A stretch of DNA of 35,017 bases from Halococcus morrhuae DSM 1307 (lineage in GTDB: Archaea; Halobacteriota; Halobacteria; Halobacteriales; Halococcaceae): positions 5,263 to 40,279 of the forward strand of contig NZ_AOMC01000166.1 of the NCBI RefSeq assembly GCF_000336695.1. The letters run 5' to 3'. Every line of letters begins with the position of its first letter. Position 1 is the first letter of the stretch. Below the pieces are notes generated by a model, which was given only the letters and a program-made list of their open reading frames with translations, searched no databases and was not told where the DNA came from. The position numbers were made by a program, and so were the translations under genes. Below, in pieces: positions 1 to 21,445 of the stretch.

Positions 1-70
1 GAGCAAAGCTCGACTTGCAGTCAGAACGTATCACGTTCTGACGACATCACGAGAGAGCTTCGCTCTCTCG
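1..70 (+). repeat. Tandem-hairpin module at the left end of copy A
   Basis: Three hairpins follow one another: GAGC/GCTC with loop AAA (1-11), TCAGAACGT/ACGTTCTGA with loop ATC (21-41), and CGAGAGAGC/GCTCTCTCG with loop TTC (50-70). The first two and their spacer (ending GCAG) closely match the segment inserted in folD at 20371-20413, including the tail CGACA after the second hairpin. This ties the intergenic repeat to an element found inside genes. Confidence 0.75.
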
Positions 71-363
71 AACGACTATGCTCTCCTGGCGGATGAAGGG
101 CGAGACCGCTTCGCGGTCGAGGGCTTCGGCGGTGCTGTGCGGGTTGCGGGGGCGGTTGGTTTCCGCGCGAGCGGAGCGAGGTTCGACCGGAGGGAGAACC
201 TCGGAAAGCGAACGGTGAACGAAGTGAACCGTGAGCAGCGAGCGCGGTTCACCGCGAGTGAGCGCGAAGCGCGAATGAGCGGGGGTTTTTAGTCCAGGTT
301 TTTGCGACGAGTGGTGGCCGACCGCAGGGAGGCCACCCGAGGAGTAAAAAAGTGGGCGAAAGG
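1..363 (+). repeat. Composite intergenic hairpin repeat, copy A
   Basis: No credible gene lies in the first 399 bases. The stretch carries blocks that recur at 15218-15531 and 24180-24440 (both reversed) and 27050-27261: CTCCTGGCGGATGAAGGG at about 84-101, GAGGGCTTC-GCGGTG near 119, TCCGCGCGAGCG near 160, CGGTTCACC near 244, GGTTTTTAGTCCAG followed by GTTTTTGCGA near 284-308, and GGAGTAAAAAAGTGGG near 340-355. Hairpins lie between the blocks: GAGAGAGC/GCTCTCTC with a TTC loop (51-69), GACCGC/GCGGTC with a TTC loop (104-118), and GTGGCC/GGCCAC between the last two blocks. Function is unknown; a non-autonomous mobile element, a structured RNA or a nucleoid-binding repeat are all possible. The left edge may be cut by the window. 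Confidence 0.8.
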
Positions 364-4753: not shown

Positions 4754-6056
4754 TGTCGTCCTCGGTGTTCAGGATGGTCTCGATCGCGTCGACGACGTCG
4801 CCCGGCCCGTTGACGTACGCGACGGCGACGTTGTCGCTACCGTGGAAGTGGCGTTCGACCTCCTCGGCGTGCGTTGCGTTGATCGCGTTGCCCGACGGCT
4901 GCGTCTCGACGTAGGCATGGAGGTTGGCCGGGATCGCCTCCATCTGCGGGATCACGTACTCCTCGGTGTCGTTCGAGGAGTTCTCGGAGTCACCCGCCGC
5001 GAACACGTATCTGTTCCAGTCGTTCCACGGGTATTCCTCGTCGAGGATCGCCGCCGCGAGCTCGTACGCGCTCGAAATCTTGGTTCCTCCTCCAGAGCGG
5101 ATGCCGAAGAACTCCTCGCGCTCGACGCGCCACGCCTCGGCATCGTGGGCGATGTAGACGAATTCGGCGCGATCATACTTCCCGGTCAGATACCAGTCGA
5201 GCGGCGTGAACGTCCGCTCGACGAGTTCGCGCTTCTGCTCGCGCATCGACCCCGAGACGTCGCGGATGTTCACGACGACGACGTTCTTCTCGTGTTCCTC
5301 GACGATCTCGGGGTAGCGATAGCGCTCGTCCTCGCGACGGAAGGGGACGTGATCGATCCCTTCCTTGCGGATGCGGGTGGCGGTGTCCTCGGCCTCGACG
5401 TTTCGCTCCATCGTCTCGATCGACGGCCAGCGCGTTCGCTCGCCGGCCGCGAGTTTGGCGTACTCGTCGTCGAGCCACGCCCGCGAGACGGGCAGGTGCT
5501 TGGCGCGCGCCCACTCGAAGACGCTCTCGGGCCCCATCCCGTCGACTCTGAGCGCCTCGTGGACGTATTCGCGGTCGAAGTCCATCGCGAGCTTGCGCTT
5601 CAGCCCCTCCTTGAACATCCGCTCGAAATCGAGCGTGCTGTTCGGTCCCGTCCTGCTGACGTCGGTGTAATCACCCTCGGTCTCCTCGACGACGCGCTTG
5701 CCCTTCGGTTCGAGATCGAGCCCCAGCCGCTCGTCGAGCTCCTGAGCGAACTCCTCGGGGTCCATCTCGTAGTATTCGTGCTCGCCGCCCTCCTCGCCGG
5801 CTTCACCCTCCTCGTCGCCCGGCTCGGGCTGACCGACCGGCTGGCCCGGCTGGGGCGTGTCGCCGTCGCCCTGTCCGACGCCACCCTGATCGCGCTTGTC
5901 GTATTCGAAGCCCGGCAGGTCGATGATCTTCACGGGTACTCGCACCGACTCCGGACCGCTCCCCCCGAGATCGCCGTACTGAATGAACTCCGCGAGGTCC
6001 TCGCGGCGATCCTCGCCGACCTCGCGGTAGCGTTCGAGATCCTCCCTCAGTCCCAT
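4746..6056 (-). CDS. YeaH/YhbH (DUF444) family protein with vWA-like domain
   Basis: A 436-aa protein. The ATG at 6056 gives the N-terminus [20 protein letters not shown]; sequence upstream in the same frame is arginine-rich and unlike a haloarchaeal protein. Residues 55-100 are a low-complexity Gly/Glu/Pro linker. The C-terminal half is a von Willebrand factor A-like fold with a DVSGSM metal-site motif (266-271), followed by a [13 protein letters not shown] stretch. In E. coli the homologue YeaH is encoded next to the kinase YeaG (PrkA), and the same neighbours occur here. Its start overlaps the second kinase by 10 bp and its end overlaps spoVR by 8 bp. A scaffold or partner role for the kinases is inferred. 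Confidence 0.93.
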
Positions 6057-19646: not shown

Positions 19647-20591
19647 ATGACGAACGTCATCGACGGCAACGCCGTCGCCGACGGGATTCGCGCCGATCTC
19701 GAGGACTGCGTCGACACGCTCGACAATGCGGGCGTCACGCCCGGGCTCGCGACGGTGCTGGTCGGCGACGACCCCGCGAGCGAGACCTACGTCTCGATGA
19801 AACAGCGCGACTGCGAGGAGGTCGGGATGAACGGCATCCACGTCGAGCTCGACGGCGACGCCGCGCCCGACGAGCTCTACGACACGATCGACGACCTCAA
19901 CGACGATTCGAGTGTTCACGGCTATCTCGTCCAGGACCCGGTACCGGACCAGATCGATTATCGGGAAGTCATCCGACGTATCGATCCCGCGAAGGACGTC
20001 GACGGGTTCCACCCCGAGAACGTCGGCCGACTCGTCGCCGGTGACGCTCGATTCAAACCCTGTACGCCCCACGGTGTGCAGAAACTGCTCGACGCGGCCG
20101 ACGTCGATCCCGAAGGGAAGGACGTCACCATCGTCGGGCGCTCGCGCATCGTCGGCAAGCCGCTCGCGAACCTCCTCATGCAGAAGACCGACGGCGGCAA
20201 CGCCACCGTCACCGTCTGTCACTCCCGCACACAGGACCTTGCCGAAAAGACCCGGCGAGCGGACATCGTCGTCGCGGCGGTCGGCGCGCCCGAACTCGTC
20301 GACGGCTCGATGCTCTCGGAAGGCACGACGGTGATCGATGTCGGCGTCAACCGCGTCGATGCCGACACCGACGAGCAACGCTCGTCGAGCAGTCAGAACT
20401 CGTCGAGTTCTGACGACACCGAGAAGGGGTACGAACTCGTCGGCGACGTCGAGTTCGACTCGGCGAAGGAGAAGGCGAGCGCCATCACTCCTGTGCCGGG
20501 CGGTGTCGGCCCGATGACGCGCGCAATGCTGCTCTACAACACCGTGAAGGCCGCGAGCCAACAGGAGGACGTCGACGTCTCCCTGCCGTGA
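19647..20591 (+). CDS. folD: Methylenetetrahydrofolate dehydrogenase/cyclohydrolase with in-frame insertion
   Basis: Interconverts methylene-, methenyl- and formyl-tetrahydrofolate. The 314-aa protein has the Y48-x3-K52 catalytic pair in YVSMKQ, the VQDPVP stretch, KPCTPHGVQKLL, the dinucleotide motif VGRSRIVGKPLANLL, CHSRTQ, and the C-terminal TPVPGGVGPMTRAML. FolD is usually about 280-300 aa. The excess is largely a Ser/Gln/Asn/Asp segment (DEQRSSSSQNSSSSDD, about residues 242-257) between VNRVDAD and EKGYELVGDV. It is encoded by a palindromic element and falls in a surface region before the conserved GDV motif, so activity is probably kept. It follows glyA in the same direction with an SDR gene between. 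Confidence 0.96.
   Translation: MTNVIDGNAVADGIRADLEDCVDTLDNAGVTPGLATVLVGDDPASETYVSMKQRDCEEVGMNGIHVELDGDAAPDELYDTIDDLNDDSSVHGYLVQDPVPDQIDYREVIRRIDPAKDVDGFHPENVGRLVAGDARFKPCTPHGVQKLLDAADVDPEGKDVTIVGRSRIVGKPLANLLMQKTDGGNATVTVCHSRTQDLAEKTRRADIVVAAVGAPELVDGSMLSEGTTVIDVGVNRVDADTDEQRSSSSQNSSSSDDTEKGYELVGDVEFDSAKEKASAITPVPGGVGPMTRAMLLYNTVKAASQQEDVDVSLP
20371..20413 (+). repeat. Tandem-hairpin element inserted in folD
   Basis: ACGAGC/GCTCGT with loop AAC (20371-20385) is followed by spacer CGAGCAG and then TCAGAACTC/GAGTTCTGA with loop GTC (20393-20413). Both the order and much of the sequence match bases 1-41 of the window. The 8-bp GACACCGA occurs on both sides (20364-20371 and 20415-20422), 51 bp apart, consistent with a target duplication and a 17-codon gain. 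Part of the right copy (CGACA) also follows the element at 1-41, so the true boundary is uncertain. Confidence 0.78.
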
Positions 20592-20603
20592 GAGATCCGT
20601 CCC

Positions 20604-21290
20604 TCAGGCGGTCGCTTCGAGCACGACGGTACCGTCCGCGTTCTTCACCGTGACCTTGTCGGGACCCTGGTAGTCCAGGGCGACCTCGTCGCGACCGACG
20701 TAGACGTCGGTGTCGCTGTCATCGCCACTACCGGTGTGAACGGTGACGGGCTGATCGACGTCGAGTTGGAAACCATCGTCGAAGGTATACTTCGCGCCGT
20801 CGCCGTAGGTGAGTGTGTAGCCCGAAAGATCGATCGTCGAGCCGCTTGCGTTGATAAGCTCGACGTACTCCTGGTTGAGATTGTCTAGCGTGCTCGGCGG
20901 CTGCTGCCGAATCTCGCCGTACGTCAGACGCTCGGAATCGCGACCCCCGTAGTTTTCGTCGTCGTCATCGTCGTCCGTCTCCGATTCCTCGGTTTCAGTT
21001 CCGGTGTCGGTATCGGCGTCCGTTTCCGTTTCGGCGTCCGTTTCTGTGTCGCTGTCGGTTTCCGTTTCGGTATCTGTGTCGGTGTCGGTATCGCTGTCCG
21101 TCAGTTCGGTCCCGCTCTCGGTGTCGGTTGCGGCCTCCGTGGCGGCCCCACCCTCCGTTCCCGTTCCGTTTCCGGAGCCGTTGTCGCCGCTCGAACCGCC
21201 GCTACAGCCAGCGAGCACGCTCGTGAGCGTGATGCTTCCCGCACCGTACAGAAACGTACGTCTCCCGAAGCTATCCGTGCTATCAGACAT
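20604..21290 (-). CDS. Tat-exported lipoprotein with Asp/Thr stalk and lamin-tail domain
   Basis: A 228-aa secreted protein. The N-terminus has the twin arginine motif GRRTFL, a short hydrophobic segment and the lipobox LAGC, so it is probably exported folded by Tat and lipid-anchored outside the cell. Residues about 35-125 are a Gly/Ser/Thr/Glu/Asp-rich stalk with many DT and ET dipeptides. The C-terminal domain, from about 137 on, contains NQEYVELINASGSTIDLSGY and TVHTGSG. It matches the lamin-tail (LTD) fold, often found on surface proteins of haloarchaea. A TTTTAGTAT box upstream gives a near-leaderless transcript. Ligand or partner is unknown. It converges on folD with 12 bp between stops. 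Confidence 0.88.
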   Translation of the reverse strand: MSDSTDSFGRRTFLYGAGSITLTSVLAGCSGGSSGDNGSGNGTGTEGGAATEAATDTESGTELTDSDTDTDTDTETETDSDTETDAETETDADTDTGTETEESETDDDDDDENYGGRDSERLTYGEIRQQPPSTLDNLNQEYVELINASGSTIDLSGYTLTYGDGAKYTFDDGFQLDVDQPVTVHTGSGDDSDTDVYVGRDEVALDYQGPDKVTVKNADGTVVLEATA

Positions 21291-21445
21291 ACTCACTCTT
21301 AAGTAATACAATACTAAAAGGCTGTCTACTTATCCAGATCACTGCCTGTGTACGGATAGCAGGCGTGACGAAGGATCTGTGCTGACATGGGTACTGCCAC
21401 CACTCAGCGGACGGTAATGAAACGATGACGCGGCTCGGTGCCGAC

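Follow-up and report, generated by a model that had tools for sequence, protein, structure and literature searches.

FolD of Halococcus morrhuae DSM 1307 contains a Ser/Gln/Asn/Asp segment whose DNA folds into hairpins, and the locus raises the question whether this segment belongs to the enzyme or entered its gene as a mobile element. The host gene folD lies at 19647..20591 on the plus strand of the window, the whole stretch of 35,017 nucleotides analysed here. It encodes 314 amino acids and matches the NCBIfam FolD subfamily NF010764 with 552 bits; the reading frame is intact and open right through the insert. The DNA for residues 241-257 consists of two hairpins in tandem. Hairpin 1 (H2, 20369..20387, +) has a stem of 8 bp and a loop of 3 nt according to DNA folding. 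The linker AGCA (20388..20391, +) follows, where the aligned intergenic copies all read GCA. Hairpin 2 (H3, 20392..20414, +), identified by pattern search and DNA folding, reads GTCAGAACTC gtc GAGTTCTGAC with a stem of 10 bp. Folded as DNA, both hairpins together reach -18.6 kcal/mol (z -4.5), a value as low as in none of 200 shuffles. The flanking repeat reported in the initial annotation is present: GACACCGA, a candidate target duplication, stands at 20364..20371 and, 51 bp further on, at 20415..20422 (both +). At the right copy, GACA corresponds to the usual H3 foot of intergenic copies, and most coding copies have GACG. The 51-nt inserted unit is placed at 20367..20417 (+) in the codon phase ACC GAC GAG ... 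TCT GAC GAC, encoding the peptide TDEQRSSSSQNSSSSDD; its exact ends are ambiguous inside the direct repeat.

Very probably, a short palindromic element, mobile but non-autonomous, has recently inserted here. Close relatives hold the site empty, the repeat family also occurs between genes, and relatives in the same frame stand in many unrelated conserved proteins. The segment had been described as two tandem hairpins resembling the start of the window, and the likeness held over a slightly longer stretch: 37 of 46 bases are identical to positions 1..46 (+), ungapped and in order, with both hairpins and the linker included. A further hairpin (H4) with its linker at 50..76 (+), read by eye, belongs to the same intergenic multi-hairpin array, which has another hairpin upstream, outside the window. 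The pattern GTCAGAAC..GTTCTGAC occurs twice in the window and in none of 100 window shuffles. It was found 8 times genome-wide (0 when read backwards), although two of these occurrences are probably overlap artefacts at N joins. Window position 1 is contig base 5263, just past an N. Because an identical repeat half stands on both sides of this N, the doubling of the copy (contig 5173-5218 and 5263-5308) probably arose in scaffolding and is artificial. Membership in an Rfam family was rejected, as a scan of the window at the gathering threshold yielded one tRNA and nothing else.

In the family genomes searched, folD is present in 18 of 18, the own genome (G000) included. The match spans 942 bp in the window, whereas the best match in the 17 other genomes covers 891 bp (13 genomes) or 888 bp (4 genomes). 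The window FolD is longer by 51 bp (17 codons) and 54 bp, respectively, and removal of 51 bp restores a normal length, as had been proposed. Alleles of close relatives, suggested earlier as a check, hold the site without these 51 bp in G003, G009, and G007 (protein identity 98, 97, and 93%). They read GCCGACAC(C/T)GAGAAG, and the window has the same bases with 51 bp between them; at the left copy of the direct repeat, the empty site of G009 reads GCCGACACCGAGAAG. At E <= 1e-40, folD is matched only once in G000, so the enzyme presumably works despite the loop. FolD of G040, from another family, carries the same 51-bp kind of unit at the same codon. A 45-bp two-hairpin variant occupies the same loop in G036, G058, G101, and one G001 protein, which is an additional paralogue.

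Among the FolD matches listed, these five and the window are the only long ones (six places, 936-942 bp), and all others are too short to hold the insert. A lineage-wide conserved FolD loop was therefore rejected, and conservation of the 17 residues across distant haloarchaeal FolD, unrelated to intergenic copies, was not what the comparison returned. In phmmer searches against solved FolD chains, the alignments of two of the 26 matched chains (3p2o and 4a5o) break off at the insert loop. Both results bear on a selected, functional loop, i.e. an acidic Ser-rich linker in FolD and other proteins with an incidental hairpin. The peptide is indeed acidic and hydrophilic, and the PurD and MFS copies described below extend across genera, some with compensating stem changes (by eye). 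Nevertheless, such a function is an improbable explanation, given the short FolD proteins, the interrupted alignments, and the occurrence of the same DNA between genes. In addition, synonymous recodings seldom fold as well as the native DNA (0 of 2000 for FolD and, in six other copies, between 0 and 13 of 2000, with codon weights guessed by the analyst), hence the peptide sequence by itself does not account for the hairpins.

A covariance model (R1), built from 15 intergenic cores with folD excluded, finds the folD copy with 47.8 bits and an E-value of 2.8e-12. This value speaks against a chance low-complexity expansion and against an assembly error. The assembly is fragmented (167 contigs) and has N joins with duplicated repeat halves, but positions 20000-21100 are free of N and G040 holds an equivalent insert at the same FolD site; either origin is very hard to credit. 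In the alignments A1 and A3, which were picked by the analyst (A3 with 7 rows), the covariation score was reached by 0 of 500 shuffles each. For the count of further pair types, another measure of covariation, 339 of 500 shuffles attained the value of A1 and 83 of 500 that of A3; 9 of the 10 pairs of hairpin 2 in A1 are invariant. The folD insert is one copy of a haloarchaeal repeat family. Outside genes, copies form arrays with as many as four hairpins, in which the linkers are constant and the stems vary (by eye). Four-hairpin arrays, e.g. L053 and L097, keep their linkers and change their stems with the pairing preserved (by eye), which suggests selection on structure or a reshuffling of units.

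The exact pattern GTCAGAAC..GTTCTGAC is present in 5 of 18 family genomes. Its longer form was found in at least 60 stretches, distributed over Halorubrum, Halococcus, Natronococcus, Natrinema, and haloarchaeal bins. A coding subtype (TC..GA, one mismatch allowed) occupies 64 places in 52 of 391 genomes of the class. The model R2, trained with folD included, detected the family at E <= 1e-6 in 4 of 7 haloarchaeal genomes and in 0 of 53 other genomes of the phylum, in a range search with stricter filters. The folD copy departs from the intergenic repeat at the hairpin tips (TC/GA) and belongs to the subtype that also lies within genes; a simple copy of the intergenic repeat was rejected for these reasons. 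A plasmid or virus source was also rejected: viral contigs contained no exact match to the coding-subtype pattern, and a blastn search with the 51 nt gave only two partial matches in Halomontanus plasmids, with no annotated feature there.

Copies within other genes were collected in three sets. The first comprised part of the R1 matches from 17 family genomes; 71 loci were mapped and checked for open reading frames. In-frame hosts were FolD, an M20 peptidase, two sulfite/nitrite reductases (L134 identified via Pfam, L177 via flank likeness), a tRNA-binding protein, and a kinase with four tandem units. Another in-gene candidate (L159), whose host we take to be nitroreductase-like, reads in a different phase. 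The second set covered 63 of the 64 coding-subtype places (the 64th is L148), and 20 of them lie within host genes on the same strand and in the same phase. Hosts are FolD, M20, TYW1, ETF beta, TFS, an ArgZ-like protein, an acyl-CoA synthetase, AstE, PurA, and PurU; further ones are MFS (3 genomes), PurD (5), a tetrapyrrole-methylase-family protein, and a second M20 protein. Pfam was applied to one host of each kind. Of the other places, many were assigned to TnpB genes, in several frames, or to positions outside genes; the transposase-gene check included four TnpB proteins and one IS6-like fragment.

For the third set, R2 was applied to 10 genomes and gave 63 matches at E <= 0.001 in 9 of them. 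In 15 of the 48 places examined, the copy lies in a host gene in the same phase; the 15 remaining matches comprise ten from the window genome, three in PurD, one in PurA, and one second-strand duplicate. Hosts are FolD of G040, histidine kinases (4), an aminotransferase, an ABC transporter, Kae1/TsaD (4), urease alpha, EthD, a class I tRNA synthetase, and the methylase counted in the second set; one representative of each newly found kind was examined with Pfam. Taken together, the three sets hold in-frame copies in 22 protein families, mostly housekeeping, if both M20 proteins are counted as one. Entry into genes without a break of the frame, as proposed in the initial annotation, is thereby extended well beyond FolD, and the anticipated SSSSQNSSSS-like inserts over hairpins of the same family do occur in other proteins. 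In the histidine kinases L178, L366, L383, L400, and L410, one to four tandem units follow the N box (NAVEHGST-like), and the duplicated flanks are apparently longer.

Filled and empty sites differ by exactly 51 bp at six genes, encoding FolD, sulfite reductase, M20 peptidase, PurA, ETF, and PurD. Empty-site relatives were read at 2 loci for sulfite reductase, 1 of 3 for M20, 2 of nine other loci tried for PurA, and 10 of 13 for ETF; for PurU, none of the 3 loci compared was readable as insert-free at the site. All six inserts can be placed on a codon boundary, and their peptides run from x-D/A/E/V-E to S-x-S-S-D-D or near it. Within one family, PurD is present in all 91 genomes. The unit is present in 6 of 50 PurD sequences, a non-random sample of the 30 best matches and 20 sequences chosen mainly for odd length. 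On a gene tree built with the insert left out, this distribution takes 5 changes, at least 4 of them forced by well-supported (starred) branches. The changes at this one site may be gains, precise losses, or short-tract gene conversion, which the tree test does not separate.

Spread from allele to allele by homologous recombination, with transposition as an old and rare event, would account for the near-identity of the inserts that five genera have at one PurD site and for one MFS site with the insert in three genera. It would not, however, bring the same unit into different genes at non-homologous sites, and the flanks of the FolD insert in G000 are close to those of insert-free relatives. 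As the main route, gene conversion is a possibility of the less likely sort.

The initial annotation had also raised a possible target duplication of 8 bp. At folD, the direct repeat alone is weak evidence, since GACACCGA occurs 6 times in the window. A flank test was performed on 26 coding copies, read and aligned by hand. The codon preceding hairpin 1 together with the 2 nt that come next was compared with the 5 nt that follow the closing triplet of hairpin 2. Of 130 positions, 77 matched, whereas shuffled pairs gave 59.1 (p 4.5e-5). Restriction to a single copy of each gene (24 rows) resulted in 69 of 120 versus 53.5 (p 2.6e-4), and without the base shared with the foot the 26 rows gave p 6.6e-4. 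The 26 rows consist of 20 rows and six host-gene copies with another first hairpin; the 20 rows yielded p 0.0019 (0.020 without the foot-shared base), and sets of 11 or 10 rows, from which two rows in a wrong register were missing, p 0.011 and 0.030. For the 7 copies with empty relatives, 26 of 35 positions matched versus 19.6 (p 0.0016). Weak rows are TYW1 with 0 of 5 matches and M20 and HisC with 1 of 5. Because the flanks co-vary beyond shuffled pairs, a duplication of about 8 bp is likely; the proposal gained support in this way and stopped short of proof. Long flank matches at PurD and the histidine kinases had prompted another candidate, a first hairpin templated by the target with its 5' arm from the host. 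It was dropped because the flanks of FolD and sulfite reductase match over about 8 bp only.

The same flanks bear on a different mode of transfer. An IS200/IS605 (Y1) transposase may move the element as single-stranded DNA, PATE- or REP-like, to the 3' side of GAC and with no target duplication; the end repeats would then stem solely from the choice of target and from the GAC with which the element itself ends. The element has two near-terminal palindromes and no terminal inverted repeats. GAC precedes 16 of 26 coding copies and follows hairpin 2 in 24 of 26; the foot of hairpin 2 is GACG in 20, GACA in 4, and GATG in 2 of these copies. TnpB genes contain or adjoin many of the compact copies, and a 52-bp terminal-only PATE is described from Haloquadratum in the accessible text of PMC3119063. 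Nevertheless, the right flank and the codon that follows the left GAC co-vary, which a model without duplication does not predict, and transfer by a Y1 transposase is therefore regarded as a tentative, rather doubtful alternative.

For the preferred reading, insertion with target duplication, a mechanism can be outlined. The unit consists of two hairpins and a GCA-type linker, 51 nt in length (also 45 nt and other lengths), with one forward frame free of stops. A putative transposase acting in trans would recognise the hairpins, and a short stretch of target, at folD about 8 bp, would be duplicated on insertion. Survival would be limited to insertions whose reading frame gives a Ser/Gln/Asn/Asp loop; the proposed reason is that a protein surface in a high-salt cytoplasm tolerates such an acidic, soluble loop. 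Alternative phases exist, namely the off-phase candidate L159 and the copies in TnpB genes in several frames, and these count against this explanation. A broader proposal has about even odds: an active haloarchaeal family of codon-phased coding palindromes, in which 51-nt (also 45-nt) hairpin pairs repeatedly enter the same essential-enzyme loops and add a similar Ser/Asp-rich loop of 15-17 residues each time. Targets would be set partly by GAC-NNC-GA-like codons. Within the CGTC-REP/RPE type, the family would form an archaeal branch, one that keeps supplying proteins with new loops.

Rickettsia palindromic elements (RPE) are the obvious comparison. According to the accessible parts of PMC2229807 and PMC3733652, these repeats are intergenic and also fused in frame in protein genes, many of them conserved (19 reading frames in PMC2229807), and an RPE-bearing Gmk is reported as active with a changed substrate affinity. 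PMC2229807 describes them with 105-146 bp and 12-bp terminal inverted repeats, and the available portion of PMC2635572 adds RPE counts and no further defining features. The resemblance in behaviour claimed in the initial annotation is borne out, as haloarchaeal copies are both intergenic and in frame within conserved genes. In contrast to RPE as described in these parts, the unit has 51 bp, two tandem hairpins, and ends that are not inverted repeats (by eye), and it occurs in Archaea; the lack of terminal inverted repeats (by eye) also separates it from MITEs, which have such repeats in common with a transposon.

CGTC-tagged REPs, reported mostly from Proteobacteria, form a superfamily that includes RPE-4 and RPE-6 of R. 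conorii and Neisseria dRS3. In the accessible sections of PMC3733652, they are hairpin units with an unpaired CGTC, TGTC, or CCTC foot at one stem end, stems of 8-9 bp, loops of 4-5 nt, and mostly CCA tails; dimers and intragenic copies occur, and no dedicated transposase is known. The haloarchaeal units are likewise dimeric with copies within genes, and on the opposite strand the foot of hairpin 2 is CGTC in 20, TGTC in 4, and another sequence in 2 of 26 copies. The left foot is loose, however (CGTC in 5 of 20). Hairpin 2 has a 10-bp stem with a 3-nt loop (second stem 7 to 8 bp in 45-bp variants) and a tail of TGC, TTG, or TGG (by eye) instead of CCA. Owing to the misfit of stem, loop, and tail, the element is not filed as a member.

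Among the repeats compared, PATEs of Haloquadratum walsbyi are the nearest described from haloarchaea, as far as the accessible text of PMC3119063 shows. These PATEs and the SMRs of the same species are transposase-free repeats with near-end palindromes and nesting in IS605-type elements; the PATEs derive from IS605 ends. Near-terminal palindromes without terminal inverted repeats are common to both. PATEs are stated there to lack target duplication, whereas the flanks of the haloarchaeal copies co-vary by the statistical, hand-aligned test given above; in-frame copies in enzymes are found here, and none is described in that accessible text. Coding palindromic repeats in protein genes are also known from Methanocaldococcus jannaschii (Suyama 2005, as cited in the accessible part of PMC2229807), likewise archaeal, from a different lineage, and compared by description only. 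Haloarchaeal coding palindromes were not found in the literature covered, i.e. titles and abstract openings with subscription journals mostly outside coverage, and the available text of the RepRanger paper (PMC12306157) contains no word starting with 'halo' or 'intragenic'. The principle of coding palindromes is thus already known, and the novelty is the haloarchaeal, codon-phased variant.

Most descriptions of coding palindromes concern intracellular bacteria, in which weak selection could account for their presence. In the present case, the hosts are housekeeping proteins of salt-loving archaea whose close relatives retain the empty site, so that insertion, tolerance, and decay are directly traceable and testable in tractable haloarchaea. 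The element represents a concrete one-step route to protein loops of 15-17 residues, and it makes a case for finding the mobiliser of CGTC-type palindromes.

Further observations concern transposase genes, PurD, and the neighbourhood of folD. Compact copies in L132, L147, L184, L186, and L187 share one site, after GACCCGCC, in apparent IS6-like transposase genes and have stops in the gene's forward frame; the L147 host matches DDE_Tnp_IS240 at E 2.3e-4, below that family's cut-off. In TnpB (OrfB_IS605) genes, among them L226, L231-L234, L259, and L247, copies lie near the 3' end in more than one frame, recalling the targeting of IS605-type elements by Haloquadratum SMR-A. A second, unlike two-hairpin insert of 57-63 bp, with a peptide like SVARAVRATKDSSGDEPRE, stands in frame between VDEE and SAGDALL of PurD in L303, L304, L306-L309, and L311-L317; several have GAGAGC flanks, and four were folded. 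Owing to this unlike insert, further families of coding palindromes probably exist. Degenerate short repeats are located at 20989-21140 of the window, inside the neighbouring minus-strand ORF 20604-21311.
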